From positions 1 through 39,611 of the IMG/VR virus record IMGVR_UViG_3300049046_000072: 39,611 nt of DNA. One strand, written 5' to 3'. The position numbers were made by a program, and so were the translations under genes. Below are positions 18,818-39,175 of the stretch, one piece after another; positions within the stretch are counted from its first letter, which is position 1; each line of letters begins with the position of its first letter. The notes beneath the pieces are model-generated. The model worked only from the letters and a program-made list of their open reading frames with translations. It made no database searches and was not told the origin of the DNA. Source of the DNA: a virus.

Positions 18818-20238
18818 TGGATAAACTTACGCCAAAACTTACAGAAGAGCAATTGAAACAGAATATTGATGCTTTGTTTAAGGCCGGAAAACAAGCAAAG
18901 GATATTCAAACGTATGTAAATAATTATAGACGAGATACCTCGGGTGCATTTGTAATTGGTTCCTCTGAACCTCAAGAACCAGCTTCGAAAACTCCGGATT
19001 TTGTAGCAACTGTATCACCATTAGCCACTGGTGGTAACTCAGGTCAGAAAGCACTAGATGCAGCTTCAGGACTTCTACAAAAATTGCCTGGGAATCAATT
19101 AGGTAGAGCAGTGGGAACTTCTGTAGATTCACTTGTTGGTTTAGCAACAGGTGACATGCAAAGATTTGAGTCCAGCGCACAACAGAATAAAGAAGAAATG
19201 GGTAAAACCGTTGGTGATGTTGGAAAAATAGTATCAACTTTAGGTTCTTTAGTAGTCAATCCAGCTCAAAGTATATTAGGGAAAAGTGCACAATTTGGAG
19301 CAACGGGCGTACTCGGTGGGGCTTCACAGGCAGCTTCTGAAGGTGGAGATTTAAAGCAAGTTGTTGAATCAGGGGCAAAAGGGGCAGTTACAGGAGCTAT
19401 AACTGGTGCAGCTTTTGGGCTAGCAGAGAAAGGTATTAAAACTTTTGCTGACCTTGTTGGTAAAACCGGGGATAAAATTCAAACCTCAGTAATTAAGCCT
19501 ACACAAGCTGATATCAAAGATGGTTTCTCGATTGATACAGTAAAAAAATATAACCTTGGTGGCTCTCTAAAACAATCATTTGAAAAAACTGACCTCAAAC
19601 TTGATGAGCTATCAAAAAAATTAAATGAAAAGCTAACAAATACAAATTCAACAATTGACTTGAATTTAATCTACGAAAAAACAGCAAAAAGACTACTTGG
19701 TAATAAATTAGAAAACTTTGGATCAAATACACAAATGGAGGGTGCCATAGAAAAACTCAGAAACGAAATTTCTTCGGTATCTGGTCAAAATGGGCTTGTG
19801 TCTATTCCTGAGGCTCAATTAGTCAAGCGAGCCTCAGGGCATTTTGGGGCATGGACATATGGTGTACCCACTCCCGAGGCAACAGCGAGCCAAAAGGTCT
19901 ATAACACTTTTTATAATGAGTTAAAAACTGCAATTGAAGAAGGAAGCCCGGATGGAGTAAAGGCTATAAATAAGGAAATATCAAATCTTATCCCAGTAAT
20001 GAATGCGCTTATTAGAAGGATTCCTGTCGCAGAAAGAAATTCAGCAATTTCACTCACTGACATTATAACTCTGTCGGCAGCTTCATTAGAACCTCGTGCA
20101 TTAGCCTTAAGTCTTGCGAATTTCGCTTCAAAGTCAGGAAGAGTCGGCGCATTACTTGGAAAAGCACCAAAAGCAGGGGACACAGTTAAAAAAGGAATAG
20201 AAAGTTTAGAACCGATAGTTAGGAGTCAAATCAAATAA
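18817..20238 (+). CDS. Probable membrane-interacting ejection protein
   Basis: 473 residues. A charged N-terminal domain is followed by Gly/Ala-rich hydrophobic stretches around residues 135-205 (SLVVNPAQSILGKSAQFGATGVLGG and GAKGAVTGAITGAAFGLAEKG) that can cross or perturb a membrane. Helical/charged parts follow, then a final Ala/Leu-rich segment. The gene is more A/T-rich than the upstream structural genes. Last gene of the long head-tail operon. Role inferred: channel through the cell envelope during DNA entry. Confidence 0.6.
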   Translation: MDKLTPKLTEEQLKQNIDALFKAGKQAKDIQTYVNNYRRDTSGAFVIGSSEPQEPASKTPDFVATVSPLATGGNSGQKALDAASGLLQKLPGNQLGRAVGTSVDSLVGLATGDMQRFESSAQQNKEEMGKTVGDVGKIVSTLGSLVVNPAQSILGKSAQFGATGVLGGASQAASEGGDLKQVVESGAKGAVTGAITGAAFGLAEKGIKTFADLVGKTGDKIQTSVIKPTQADIKDGFSIDTVKKYNLGGSLKQSFEKTDLKLDELSKKLNEKLTNTNSTIDLNLIYEKTAKRLLGNKLENFGSNTQMEGAIEKLRNEISSVSGQNGLVSIPEAQLVKRASGHFGAWTYGVPTPEATASQKVYNTFYNELKTAIEEGSPDGVKAINKEISNLIPVMNALIRRIPVAERNSAISLTDIITLSAASLEPRALALSLANFASKSGRVGALLGKAPKAGDTVKKGIESLEPIVRSQIK

Positions 20239-33646: not shown

Positions 33647-33714
33647 AGCGGGGCATGTGGTCATGAATTGAGCCTCATAAGCTCGACAAGGAAGTTCGAT
33701 TCTTCTTCCCGCAA
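33647..33714 (+). tRNA. tRNA-Met (CAT anticodon) with very short D arm
   Basis: Acceptor A1 plus GCGGGG pairs with TCCCGC and A72 (6 pairs, A1:A72 mismatch), discriminator A73, CCA not encoded. Anticodon arm TGAGC/GCTCG with loop CTCATAA (CAT at 33676-33678), variable loop ACAA, T arm GGAAG/CTTCT with canonical loop TTCGATT. The D arm is reduced to a CATG/CATG mini-hairpin with a TGGT loop and there is no normal 8-9 spacer. It is about 5 bases shorter than usual. CAT could be elongator Met, initiator Met or Ile2 (lysidine-modified). Confidence 0.65.
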
Positions 33715-34686: not shown

Positions 34687-35289
34687 ATGAAAATTACAGA
34701 CAAATTCAAGGTTCAATTCTGGAGAAGGACGCACACGAATCAATTTCTAAACCAAATAGACGAGTATGTCGCATGGAAAAGATTATTTGCCAACTCTACG
34801 GATCAATACGAAAACGTACTAATAGATTTCCTCATTCAGACGGGCAGGGAATCCATTTCCCACGTATCGAGAGAGGACGTGAATAACTACCGTCACAGGC
34901 TCTCCGTGGAAACCACTCCCTACCAAACGCTTAAATATCTCCATGACATACGGGGTTTATTCCGGTACTACGGGGCAAGAAAAGTAATGTGTCTTTCCGC
35001 CAACGTGATAACAGAGGAAGGTATCTCGCCAGTTTTGTCGGTTAATGATATCATGCGCAATATGGCAAGAACGCTAAGCTCAGAAGAAAAGAAAAAGAGA
35101 AACGAGGACTTGGTTCGAAAGCGAATCCAAGACCCTTTGAAGTGGACGTATCGGGAATTGGCCAAGGAGTTCGATTTGGCCCGATCAACCTCTCAGCAAA
35201 TGTTTATGAGGCACGTTATGAAATATGCCTCTCAAGAGGAGTTTAGAAACTATCAGAAAATCATCAACGAAACCTACGTTTCGGGGTAA
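34687..35289 (+). CDS. SAM-like recombinase-type DNA-binding domain fused to HTH, no catalytic domain
   Basis: 200 residues from ATG 34687. Residues 20-107 (NQIDEYVAWKRLFANSTDQYENVLIDFLIQTG, DVNNYRHRLS, YLHDIRGLFRYYGARK) match the N-terminal SAM-like core-binding domain of tyrosine recombinases. Instead of the R-H-R-Y catalytic domain there is a basic linker and an HTH (WTYRELAKEFDLARSTSQQMFMRHV, 153-177) resembling sigma region 4 or a transcription regulator. Behind a consensus promoter with a structured leader, it looks like a DNA-binding regulator recycled from an integrase. Confidence 0.72.
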   Translation: MKITDKFKVQFWRRTHTNQFLNQIDEYVAWKRLFANSTDQYENVLIDFLIQTGRESISHVSREDVNNYRHRLSVETTPYQTLKYLHDIRGLFRYYGARKVMCLSANVITEEGISPVLSVNDIMRNMARTLSSEEKKKRNEDLVRKRIQDPLKWTYRELAKEFDLARSTSQQMFMRHVMKYASQEEFRNYQKIINETYVSG

Positions 35290-35324
35290 GATTTGGCTAG
35301 ATTTAGGGTAAAAAGGGTATTTTG

Positions 35325-35372
35325 ACTTATCCCCAGTTGCCATTTGTAACACTGTACGCAGGGGTATATACT
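35325..35372 (+). promoter_or_regulatory. Promoter, copy 2 of the repeated block
   Basis: ACTTATCCCCAGTTGC followed by -35 TTGTAA (35344-35349), 17-bp spacer, -10 TATACT (35367-35372). Shares the upstream block and spacing with 3869-3916 (DnaA-like site TTATCCCCA, one mismatch). The first thing downstream is a small RNA, not a gene. Confidence 0.6.
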
Positions 35373-35378
35373 GACAGG

Positions 35379-35525
35379 GTAGGTTACTTGAAATATGCTT
35401 CGCAAATATCGGTAGATTGGTTTTTTATATAAAGTAAGGTAGTGTCGCACAATATATCGCTTACGGTGATATGTAGGCATTACTTACAGTATACGAAACA
35501 CCAGTCTAACCGACTGGTGTTTTTG
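35379..35525 (+). ncRNA. Small RNA: promoter, long hairpin, terminator, no ORF
   Basis: From the predicted start near 35379 to the terminator is about 147 bases without a supportable ORF. A long hairpin spans 35434-35487: GTAA/TTAC, bulged G, GTAGTG/CATTAC, and an inner ATATATC/GATATGT arm with a 9-base loop. A strong terminator follows. This is the signature of an independently transcribed regulatory RNA. Its target is unknown. Confidence 0.6.
35496..35525 (+). terminator. Strong terminator of the small RNA
   Basis: Stem AAACACCAGTC/GACTGGTGTTT (11 bp), loop TAACC, T-run ending TTTTTG. One of the strongest terminators in the window. Confidence 0.9.
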
Positions 35526-35803
35526 TTCTCTGGCCGGTAGATGAGGGTGTCCATTGGGCGCAGGAATGCGTACTCAATCCTCTACCTACCAGAGAATGAA
35601 AACCCTATTTGCGGATACCCGCAGGAAAAGAAACTAAGGAAACAAGCGACACGAGGGCTACGGCTCGGAACTGCACGCAATGGCCTAAATGTTCTTTTCC
35701 CACGGGTGTCTAGTCGGCATCCCGTTAGGAATTAGCCTAGCGGTCATCTTTGAAGAGCTTTGTGTCCGTCGATAGCCCCTTACTCACAAAGCGAGGGGCG
35801 ATC
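35526..35803 (+). ncRNA. Candidate ornate structured RNA (~280 nt), unknown class
   Basis: Helices by eye: P1 TTCTCTGG/CCAGAGAA (35526-35533, 35589-35596), stacked on GGTA/TACC, GAGG/CCTC, ATTG/CAAT and CGCA/TGCG capped by a GGAA (GNRA) tetraloop. P2 TGCGG/CCGCA (35610-35623). P3 GGAAAAGAA/TTCTTTTCC (35624-35632, 35692-35700), a 9-bp long-range helix. Alternative P4 ACGGG/CCCGT and P5 CCGTTAGG/CCTAGCGG that exclude each other. H-type pseudoknot GCTTTGTG/CACAAAGC with GCCCCT/AGGGGC (35757-35799), just before the ribosome site of the next gene. It does not match tmRNA, RNase P or group I/II hallmarks that I know. Confidence 0.55.
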
Positions 35804-35824
35804 AATGGGAAGGCTCAAAGATTT

Positions 35825-35965
35825 ATGTACACAGGAAATTATGCGAAGGAAAGGGCGGAGATACTTCGAAACAGGCGAATAGGATATTTCGGAGTAATCG
35901 TGGTTGTGACAGCAATCTCCCTCATTTTCACGGGAATTATTAGCGATCTTGCTAACAACTTCTAA
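35825..35965 (+). CDS. Small membrane protein (46 aa) behind the structured RNA
   Basis: ATG 35825, with GGGAAGG upstream, follows the pseudoknot; the upstream in-frame ATG 35750 would lie in the RNA and is less likely. A charged N-terminus (NYAKERAEILRNRR) and one transmembrane helix (IGYFGVIVVVTAISLIFTGII). Possibly expressed only when the leader RNA changes fold. Function unknown. Confidence 0.55.
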   Translation: MYTGNYAKERAEILRNRRIGYFGVIVVVTAISLIFTGIISDLANNF

Positions 35966-35966
35966 C

Positions 35967-36164
35967 ATGAACTTCAAAATCAAAACAACAGCGGCGAACT
36001 TGTATGAAGCCTTCGAAAACTTGAAGGACGAATTGAAAGAACCACGCCTTAAAACAGAAAGGGTAGTGAACTGGGTAATTTCTGGGAATGCTAGTGGTTC
36101 ATTTAACAACTGCCCGCCAGGTTACGACAACGAGGGCAATTCTACCCCTAACCACAACTTCTAA
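35967..36164 (+). CDS. Small hypothetical protein (65 aa)
   Basis: ATG 35967, one base after the previous stop. Charged amphipathic helices (AANLYEAFENLKDELKEPRLKTERVVNW) and a Gly/Asn/Pro-rich tail. Stop overlaps the next start. No family seen. Confidence 0.55.
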   Translation: MNFKIKTTAANLYEAFENLKDELKEPRLKTERVVNWVISGNASGSFNNCPPGYDNEGNSTPNHNF

Positions 36165-36265
36165 TGCCCTACTCAACAATTACTTTAGACGGAATCAAGT
36201 ATGCCGTGTACATGGTGCAGAACGGGGCAGACGACTTCGACTTAATTTACGAACCACTATGTTAA
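36164..36265 (+). CDS. Very small hypothetical protein (33 aa)
   Basis: Starts in a TAATG overlap and overlaps the next start at 36259. Short two-strand pattern (YSTITLDGIKYAVYMVQ). Supported only by tight gene spacing. Confidence 0.45.
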   Translation: MPYSTITLDGIKYAVYMVQNGADDFDLIYEPLC

Positions 36266-37065
36266 CTCAAGACAGAACAGTAACCATAGGGGCGTATACG
36301 TTCGATGAAAAGGAACACTTGCACATGCTAGACGGCAAGCCTTTGACGGGAGTTACAACAATCCTCGGAGTGATAGCAAAGCCCATGCTCATACAGTGGG
36401 CGGCGAATATGGCTTGCGATTACATCAAAGAGAAGGCAACACCTTTCACACATGAGGGTAAAGAAATCTATTCTGTATACGAAGAAATTCTTAAAGAAGC
36501 CCGTGTCGCCCACCGCAAGAAGAAGGAATCCGCAGGTGAGTTCGGTACAAACGTTCACAACGCTATTGAAACATTTATTAAGGGTTTAATAACTAATTCC
36601 TCTGAAGAACCTCTAAGAGCTGTATTGAACACTTTAACCCCTTTAGAACTTAAAGCAGTTGAACATTTCACTAAATGGGCACAAGACAACAAGGTTAAGT
36701 TCCTTGAATCAGAAAAGCACGTTTACTCTCGATCGCTCTGGGTAGGTGGTATCTGCGACATCGTTTGTGAAATAGACGGCAAGAGATATGTAGCGGATAT
36801 CAAGACTTCAAGCGGTATATATCCTGAAGCATTTATCCAGTGTTCAGCCTACGCAAAAATGCTTGAGGAAATGGGTATGCAGGTTGCCGAACATGAAAAC
36901 GAAGTACGACCAGACTTATATAGCAAATTTGACGGCGTACTCATTCTCAACTGCAACAAGAAAGGGGGCTTTGAACACGCTTTCAACTACGACATAGAGG
37001 GTAACTTCGAGTGCTTCAAGGCGGCGGTGAAAATTTATCGACAAATGAACGCAATTAAATGTTAA
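36259..37065 (+). CDS. RecB/Cas4-like PD-(D/E)XK nuclease
   Basis: 268 residues from ATG 36259; upstream in-frame ATGs lie inside other genes. The PD-(D/E)XK core appears as GGICDIVCEIDGKRYVADIKTSSG near residues 164-187 (D, then D-x-K), followed by a helix with Q-x-x-x-Y (FIQCSAYAKMLEEMG), typical of RecB/Cas4-type exonucleases. The N-terminal 100 residues carry basic/helical segments. With SSB and NinG it forms a recombination set. Overlaps the HNH gene. Confidence 0.82.
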   Translation: MLTQDRTVTIGAYTFDEKEHLHMLDGKPLTGVTTILGVIAKPMLIQWAANMACDYIKEKATPFTHEGKEIYSVYEEILKEARVAHRKKKESAGEFGTNVHNAIETFIKGLITNSSEEPLRAVLNTLTPLELKAVEHFTKWAQDNKVKFLESEKHVYSRSLWVGGICDIVCEIDGKRYVADIKTSSGIYPEAFIQCSAYAKMLEEMGMQVAEHENEVRPDLYSKFDGVLILNCNKKGGFEHAFNYDIEGNFECFKAAVKIYRQMNAIKC

Positions 37066-37586
37066 CAGAAAAACATAAAAAGAATATAAGCATTGGTTGT
37101 AAAAGGGCTGGTGCTGGAAAGTGGATGTTAGGAAGGAGTCTTTCAATTCAACATAAACAAAATATTGGACGATCACTAAAAGGAATAATGAAAGGGAAAA
37201 AATTATCGCCTGAACATATAGAAAAACTTCGTAAATCTCATCTAGGTAAAAAACCAGCACCATTAACTCCGGAAGGACTAAGAAAATTAAGAGAAATAAG
37301 AAAGGGTAGCAAAAGCAATCTTTGGAAAGGAGGACTAACAGATCAAAATAAAATACTTAGAAGTTCATCCTATTGGAAAGAGTGGAGAAAGGCAGTTTAC
37401 GAAAGAGACAATTATACCTGTCAGGAATGCAAAATTAGAGGGGGTAAATTACACCCACATCACATAAAACCATTCGCAAAGTTTCCAGAATTGCGTTTTG
37501 AAATAAGTAACGGAATTACCTTGTGTGAAATGTGTCATAGAAAAACAGACAGTTATGGACGGCCAAATAAAAAAATAAAACAATGA
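37059..37586 (+). CDS. HNH homing endonuclease with NUMOD3 repeats (second copy)
   Basis: 175 residues. N-terminal basic NUMOD3-like repeats (MLTEKHKKNISIG, SLSIQHKQNIGRSLKG, KLSPEHIEKLRKSHLGKK). C-terminal HNH site: CQEC knuckle, HPHHIKPF, NGITLCEMCHRK. More A/T-rich than its neighbours. Inserted between nuclease and SSB-like genes with overlaps on both sides and no intron. Different from the copy at 1106-1648 in sequence, so two independent arrivals or old divergence. Confidence 0.85.
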   Translation: MLTEKHKKNISIGCKRAGAGKWMLGRSLSIQHKQNIGRSLKGIMKGKKLSPEHIEKLRKSHLGKKPAPLTPEGLRKLREIRKGSKSNLWKGGLTDQNKILRSSSYWKEWRKAVYERDNYTCQECKIRGGKLHPHHIKPFAKFPELRFEISNGITLCEMCHRKTDSYGRPNKKIKQ

Positions 37587-38008
37587 AAATAAACATCACT
37601 TACATAAATAGAACTCAGCGAACTTCACGAGAAGGGAAACCATTTACATCAATTAGTTTGAAGTGTTCCCAGTATGGAGAAAAATATCTATCTGGTTTTG
37701 GGAATAAAGCTAATGAAAATTGGGCGATAGGACAAGAGGTTGAAATAGCGGAAGTAAAGGAAGTGCAAAAGGACGGTAAGACTTACCTTAACTTTGAAAT
37801 GGCTAAGGCTACCCCACAAGCCTCGTCTGAGGTACTTCAAGGGGTTAAACACTTGGTGCTTATGGTCGAGACAATCAAGCGGGATCAGCAAAAGATTATC
37901 GACCACCTTTCGGGAAAGAACCGCCTCGACTTAACAAGTGCTGGCACGAAAGTCCCAGACTTCTCGGAAGTAAACGACATTAGCCCTGAGGATATCCCAT
38001 TCAACTAA
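37583..38008 (+). CDS. ssb: Single-strand DNA-binding-like protein
   Basis: 141 residues. A beta-rich N-terminal OB-fold-like region (INITYINRTQRTSREGKPFTSISLKC, GQEVEIAEVKEV, KTYLNFEMAKA), a middle helix and an acidic tail ending DISPEDIPFN that matches the SSB C-terminal tip which recruits partner proteins. ATGA overlap with the HNH gene. Protects ssDNA in replication. Confidence 0.75.
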   Translation: MKINITYINRTQRTSREGKPFTSISLKCSQYGEKYLSGFGNKANENWAIGQEVEIAEVKEVQKDGKTYLNFEMAKATPQASSEVLQGVKHLVLMVETIKRDQQKIIDHLSGKNRLDLTSAGTKVPDFSEVNDISPEDIPFN

Positions 38009-38797: not shown

Positions 38798-38983
38798 ATG
38801 CCGGAAAAAATATTAACAACAACGGATATGCGCGGTTACGGTTCCGGTTACGGTGACGGTGACGGTTACGGTGACGGTTCCGGTTCCGGTTACGGTTCCG
38901 GTTACGGTTACGGTGACGGTGACGGTTACGGTTACGGTTACGGTTCCGGTTCCGGTTACGGTGACGGTTACGGTTCAGCGTAG
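38798..38983 (+). CDS. Gly-Tyr-Gly-(Ser/Asp) repeat protein (61 aa)
   Basis: One base after the DUF6948-like gene. After a short opening (PEKILTTTDMR) the chain is GYGSGYGDG-type dipeptides: Gly alternating with Tyr, Ser and Asp. The DNA is a hexamer tandem (GGTTAC, GGTTCC, GGTGAC). Low-complexity, likely disordered and able to phase-separate or act as a flexible linker. Real because it follows an overlap-style spacing and keeps frame; length may vary between isolates. Confidence 0.65.
   Translation: MPEKILTTTDMRGYGSGYGDGDGYGDGSGSGYGSGYGYGDGDGYGYGYGSGSGYGDGYGSA
38833..38975. repeat. Hexanucleotide tandem repeat coding Gly-Tyr/Ser/Asp
   Basis: Units of GGT plus TAC, TCC or GAC, nearly uninterrupted. 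Replication slippage could change copy number without changing frame, which would vary the protein length. Confidence 0.75.
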
Positions 38984-39079: not shown

Positions 39080-39175
39080 GGAAACGTAGCCTTAAAAGGA
39101 ATAAAGGCTATCTGTATATGAACAGTGATTGTGTCCTTATACAGGTATATGGGAGTTCGATTCTCCCCGTTTCCG
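39080..39175 (+). ncRNA. tRNA-like element with 10-bp arm in place of the anticodon arm
   Basis: Perfect 7-bp acceptor GGAAACG/CGTTTCC, then discriminator G. D arm GCC(TT)/(AA)GGC with GG in the loop, T arm GGGAG/CTCCC with canonical TTCGATT loop. Between D and T arms is TATCTGTATA/TATACAGGTA (10 bp) with a 19-base loop, not a 7-base anticodon loop. 96 bases, near the size of Ser/SeC tRNAs, but no anticodon could be placed. Not a tmRNA (no G3:U70, no pseudoknots). Possibly a tRNA mimic; it lies 68 bases before the initiator gene. Confidence 0.55.

Follow-up and report, generated by a model that had tools for sequence, protein, structure and literature searches.

Does the non-coding stretch that precedes a small membrane-protein gene in this phage act as an RNA element and, if so, which part of it? 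The window, the whole DNA analyzed here, is a 39,611-base IMG/VR virus record, and the stretch (hereafter the leader) occupies positions 35526-35803. The initial annotation described it as one ornate RNA of ~280 nt. Its predicted folding energy was -98.8 kcal/mol, compared to -84 ± 4.8 kcal/mol for dinucleotide shuffles (z = -3.07), and none of 200 shuffles folded as low, which bears out the description as a structured RNA. By part, z was -2.94 for the 71-nt hairpin, -2.93 for the middle 142 nt and -3.93 for the last 75 nt. The stems, the GNRA (GGAA) loop and the mutually exclusive helices that had been listed are all present in the sequence:

35526-35533/35589-35596, plus strand: closing helix of 8 bp, found in the sequence
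35526-35596, plus strand: 71-nt hairpin with closing helix UUCUCUGG/CCAGAGAA and the GGAA tetraloop within 35558-35571
35613-35621/35703-35711, plus strand: long-range helix, 9 bp
35624-35632/35692-35700, plus strand: long-range helix, 9 bp
35704-35710/35716-35722, plus strand: alternative local hairpin GGGUGUC-UAGUC-GGCAUCC, which excludes the long-range helix
35722-35743, plus strand: hairpin CCGUUAGG-AAUUAG-CCUAGCGG, directly 5' of the S1/S2 switch
35757-35792, plus strand: helix S1, GCUUUGUG (35757-35764) with CACAAAGC (35785-35792)
35775-35799, plus strand: helix S2, GCCCCUU (35775-35781) with GAGGGGC (35793-35799)

The long-range helices of 35613-35711 enclose a core, GCGAC...ACGCAAUGG. 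S2 is the core of a stable rod at about 35755-35816, and the end of this rod lies 8 nt 5' of the membrane-gene AUG. The reading frames around the 3' end of the leader are as follows:

35805-35882, plus strand: overlapping small ORF (25 aa) with its AUG at 35805 inside the rod, seen in the window only and possibly untranslated
35825-35965, plus strand: small membrane-protein gene (46 aa); by eye, its product has a charged N-terminus and a single hydrophobic stretch at the C-terminus
36259-37065, plus strand: downstream exonuclease (phrog_298), the query that led to the relatives

An ORF at 35541-35735 was considered as a gene and rejected, as no counterpart was seen in the relatives. Further downstream, an SSB-like ORF (37583-38008; identity by eye) has an acidic EDIPF tip, no PHROG match and a 47% homologue in contig G001, and an ORF of Gly-Tyr-Gly-Ser/Asp repeats lies at 38798-38983.

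Relatives were found in two other phage lineages among 2.9 million viral contigs. The exonuclease led to G001 (69% identity), in which a corresponding leader and its small membrane gene lie near one contig end (locus L005), with a second, truncated leader copy at the contig start. A search of the viral contigs with the G001 integrase gave L012, a strain in which copy A follows attP, and L013, whose integrase is 70% identical. The comparison base is therefore three lineages: the window, G001 (including L012) and L013. A leader followed by a small membrane ORF occurs in the same order in all relatives, and both G001 copies (A and B) as well as L013 encode a similarly built small protein (42-50 aa) at this position. 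The exonuclease route also gave distant loci, among them L007, which does not carry the element. No relatives came from exonuclease and integrase searches of bacterial genomes or from the upstream HTH-type protein as query. When phage records were searched for DNA similarity, the window RNA gave one short weak match only and the G001 RNA gave none. The matches listed for the L013 RNA were to tRNA-Lys and were rejected as leader homologues. A helix-sequence pattern scan of all viral contigs returned 12 stretches, and those beyond the known ones were all due to chance. As side observations, the window protein at 34687-35289 resembles, by eye, the core-binding domain of an integrase joined to an HTH, with no catalytic domain, and its place in the relatives is taken by an integrase and an HTH protein of 60-65 aa. 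The minus strand of L005 1-825 holds a GroEL-like reading frame (by eye) in a phage contig.

Two signals recognized by consensus match lie upstream of the leader:

35344-35372, plus strand: promoter-like TTGTAA-N17-TATACT, with 9 of 12 consensus matches
35495-35523, plus strand: terminator-like hairpin of 12 pairs with a U run, directly 5' of the RNA

The promoter motif and the adjoining 35363-35382 (GGTATATACTGACAGGGTAG) form a block common to all three lineages; the promoter-like site is the same in L013 and, by eye, has a TTGCAT variant in G001. Scanning all viral contigs for the pattern of this block gave 33 stretches, of which the real ones were only those already known. A terminator-like hairpin is also found in G001 (L005 4220-4240); the one in L013, AGCGCCGAAACGGCGCTTTCTT, was recognized by eye only, the scan having missed it. 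Between the promoter motif and the leader, G001 and L013 have a tRNA-Lys fragment, a putative attP, so integration would separate motif and leader in these relatives. Beside the window copy, the Rfam scan gave no tRNA match, and no integrase gene was seen adjoining it. The two G001 RNA copies (L005 4283-4580 and L002 1-275) are near-identical and precede two diverged membrane genes; they represent a duplication or a strain-swap point, and L012 joins attP to copy A. Elsewhere in the window, a tRNA-like gene at 39080-39175 scores 32.2 bits with the Rfam tRNA model (cutoff 29) and has 27 extra nt in the anticodon/variable region; it was missed by ARAGORN and by the whole-window Rfam scan. A degenerate tRNA-like sequence at 33647-33714, whose anticodon loop is of the CAU type and whose D arm is defective, scores 19.3 bits, under the cutoff.

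The relatives do not keep the leader as one ~280-nt unit, as had been proposed; they keep only the 3' ~70 nt and the hairpin before it. The 71-nt hairpin has no equivalent in G001 or L013, where only the 5' letters UCUGGCC recur. The long-range helices have a loose analogue in G001 (GCGUCUGG/CCAGAUGC) and no clear counterpart in L013, and the similarity of core motifs in this region was seen by eye in the alignment. For the 5' part, z was -1.52 in G001; in L013 it was -0.22, no better than shuffles. The large 5' part, including the 71-nt hairpin, the GNRA loop and the long-range helix, is mostly window-specific. Read from the sequences, the alternative hairpin has a G001 counterpart, GAUGCU-UAGUC-AGCAUC, with the same UAGUC loop, and L013 has CCGAUGG-AAUUUGG-CCAUCGG before S1 where the window has the hairpin at 35722-35743. 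The UCUGGCC box, the hairpin before S1a and the short core motifs recur, which we do not claim as conservation from three sequences.

In all three lineages, the order S1a-S2a-S1b-S2b is found directly 5' of the small ORF (42-50 codons), with these letters:

Window: GCUUUGUG ... GCCCCUU ... CACAAAGC-GAGGGGC
G001: ACCAACA ... (G)YUAUUCCCC ... UGUUGGU ... GGGGAAUAG(C)
L013: ACCAAUG ... UUCCCC ... CAUUGGU ... GGGGAA

We chose the register by hand, guided by the structure, since MAFFT misregisters the window and its alignment of the switch is unusable there. In this register, all 7 shared pairs of S1 show two-sided compensating changes between lineages; two of the seven separate G001 from L013, a pair of lineages with well-aligned flanking letters. 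In S2, CCCC/GGGG is unchanged; two-sided changes set the window apart from both relatives at one position and from G001 at one more. The z of the 3' domain (the last 60-75 nt) was -3.93 in the window, -5.61 in L012 (G001 type) and -2.95 in L013. An interleaved pair this strong before the AUG appeared in 3 of 1000 shuffles of the window (last 100 nt) and in 0 of 1000 for L012 (G001 copy B); the 33 of 1000 for L013 is a modest result. The leader pairs of G001 are the two best such pairs on the plus strand of its genome. Each phage genome has several pairs that score about as well, and one at 19794 in the window scores higher. Because such pairs occur elsewhere, the argument rests on where the leader pairs lie and on their conservation, and not on strength alone. 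Mutually exclusive helices, compensating changes and a place next to the start, the marks of a bistable leader, were found together in the three lineages in the hand-set register. The stems asked of homologues by the initial annotation are thus kept for the 3' element and lost for much of the rest. Its picture of a structured, unassigned RNA upstream of a small membrane gene holds, with the element placed in a different part: the conspicuous stems are not the conserved ones.

The Rfam scan that had been called for gave no match at the gathering score anywhere in the window (Rfam 15), and likewise none at the cutoff over the element in L012 and L013. This agrees with the earlier statement that no class could be assigned. 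Three permissive matches within 35280-35980, to OrzO-P, MIR156 and PreQ1, are all far under their cutoffs. The antitoxin RNA OrzO-P (RF02083) is weakly similar to the upstream hairpin stretch at 35448-35524 (26.4 bits against a cutoff of 60). The large phage RNAs GOLLD and ROOL had been offered for comparison. Like them, the element is a phage RNA with extensive structure, and in relatives tRNA or attP sequence lies close by (PMC12286853). However, many GOLLD members exceed 800 nt and both classes are standalone RNAs (PMC12286853), whereas the element is 278 nt or shorter, has no covariance-model match to either class in the window and is positioned as a leader, so the comparison does not fit.

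S1 and S2 had been read as an H-type pseudoknot. Loop lengths (L1/L2/L3) are 10/3/0 nt for the window (L3 0-2), 2/9/4 nt for G001 and 5/11/6 nt for L013. Because the loops are short, a full pseudoknot is sterically doubtful in the window, where L3 would have to cross the 8-bp S1, and in G001, unless end pairs open. The arrangement is better read as two mutually exclusive helices, with a partial pseudoknot possible. Nested folding, which cannot model pseudoknots, prefers the S2 state by about 9-19 kcal/mol. When the growing transcript was folded (also nested), S1 reached a probability of 0.84-0.99 just after S1b was made, and S2 reached 0.97-1.00 some 10-16 nt after S1b, in every lineage. In these folds S1 is transient, yet compensating changes preserve it, suggesting that it matters. 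The rod ends 8 nt before the AUG in the window, 7 nt in G001 and about 10 nt in L013 (~7-11 overall). In the window, S2b ends 25 nt 5' of the membrane AUG, and occlusion there depends on the extension of the rod.

A ribosome site had also been placed ahead of the membrane gene. Shine-Dalgarno motifs stand at 9%, 7% and 16% of ORF starts against backgrounds of 12%, 9% and 10%, with no enrichment in the window phage or its relatives, and the start contexts of the window and G001 are A-rich. In Flavobacterium, which is Shine-Dalgarno-free, structure near the start tunes initiation (PMC6847099). Since the phages lack this enrichment, a rod near the start codon should limit initiation. We put at roughly 0.5 the probability that the element is a co-transcriptional two-state cis-regulatory operon leader controlling translation of the first gene, that of the small membrane protein. 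Conservation, the alternative folds and the location were computed; from these we infer the direction of regulation, its timing and the role of attP. If Shine-Dalgarno signals are absent, initiation would require the RNA leading up to the AUG to be unstructured. The S1 state on the nascent RNA would leave the stretch before the AUG open (ON), and the S2 rod on the mature RNA would close it (OFF). Synthesis of the membrane protein would then be confined to a brief phase of transcription, or to times when a trans factor or a partial pseudoknot holds S1.

In one alternative, S1 and S2 coexist in an H-type pseudoknot, and a phage protein bound to it would repress translation; the SSB-like protein is a candidate ligand. 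In favor of this, the two helices are conserved jointly. In T4, gp32 has its nucleation site at a pseudoknot 5' of its own start (PMC535899), and the operon here carries the SSB-like ORF at 37583-38008. As in the T4/RB69 gene 32 operator, a pseudoknot-type mRNA element lies 5' of a start and diverges in sequence between relatives (PMC535899). That operator consists of a ~28-nt pseudoknot and, after it, a less structured UUAAA tract with ordinary initiation signals (PMC535899), whereas this leader precedes the membrane gene rather than ssb, lacks a Shine-Dalgarno signal and has helices that overlap too tightly (L3 of 0-2 nt over 8 bp in the window; L1 of 2 nt and L3 of 4 nt in G001) unless pairs open. 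An L2 of 3-11 nt is unusual as well, and the SSB was identified by eye. We regard this reading as unlikely. A type I toxin-antitoxin system, in which the membrane protein is a toxin with a metastable mRNA and the upstream promoter-to-terminator stretch is the antitoxin RNA, would suit a small hydrophobic protein. It has a precedent in the metastable mRNA folds of type I toxins (PMC6733600), and the sub-threshold OrzO-P match falls in that stretch. In aapA3 leaders, too, translation of a small protein is controlled by alternative hairpins that arise while the RNA is being transcribed (PMC6733600). However, the longest exact match between the upstream RNA and the mRNA is 7-8 nt, equaled in 12, 172 and 23 of 200 shuffles, so the same-strand RNA has no special complementarity and an antisense role is unsupported. 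A minus-strand antitoxin RNA was checked by promoter scan only, which found no promoter in the region. The membrane gene belongs to an operon whose next genes follow at short intervals, and the transient fold proposed here would open the start instead of closing it, unlike aapA3. A toxin-antitoxin system is therefore quite improbable.

The position at the head of the early operon, 3' of a promoter motif and a terminator-like hairpin, would also fit a put-like antitermination or attenuation RNA acting on RNA polymerase instead of ribosomes. The RNA cannot affect the hairpin with the U run, because that hairpin lies upstream of it; no U run follows S2 in any lineage, and the conserved part hugs the start codon. 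We consider this very unlikely. Equally slim is the case for structures that arose by chance, or for repeats of the attachment region at the DNA level, without RNA function: several similar interleaved pairs exist per genome and attP adjoins the element in two relatives, but place and order are the same in three lineages with compensating changes, G001 has the RNA twice in near-identical form, each time before a membrane gene, and these two genes are diverged, and no tRNA match lies beside the window copy. A metabolite riboswitch with a variable aptamer would account for the bistable 3' end, which resembles an expression platform. The size of the element varies between about 170 and 280 nt, the three lineages have no strongly conserved aptamer-like sequence and the PreQ1 match is at chance level (E = 5), leaving this explanation highly improbable.

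Taken as a two-state leader, the 3' end of 35526-35803 is probably an undescribed RNA switch for the membrane gene. A fuller version, which we hold tentatively and at well under even odds, is a new RNA family: a ligand-free co-transcriptional timer in Shine-Dalgarno-free phages that lets a phage membrane gene be translated on nascent RNA only. Where attP lies between promoter and leader, integration would cut one from the other, and such members would be active on circular phage DNA only. If correct, the two-state leader would be an undescribed RNA control element in uncultivated phages, would show that translation can be switched without Shine-Dalgarno pairing and would offer a compact model of kinetic RNA folding.
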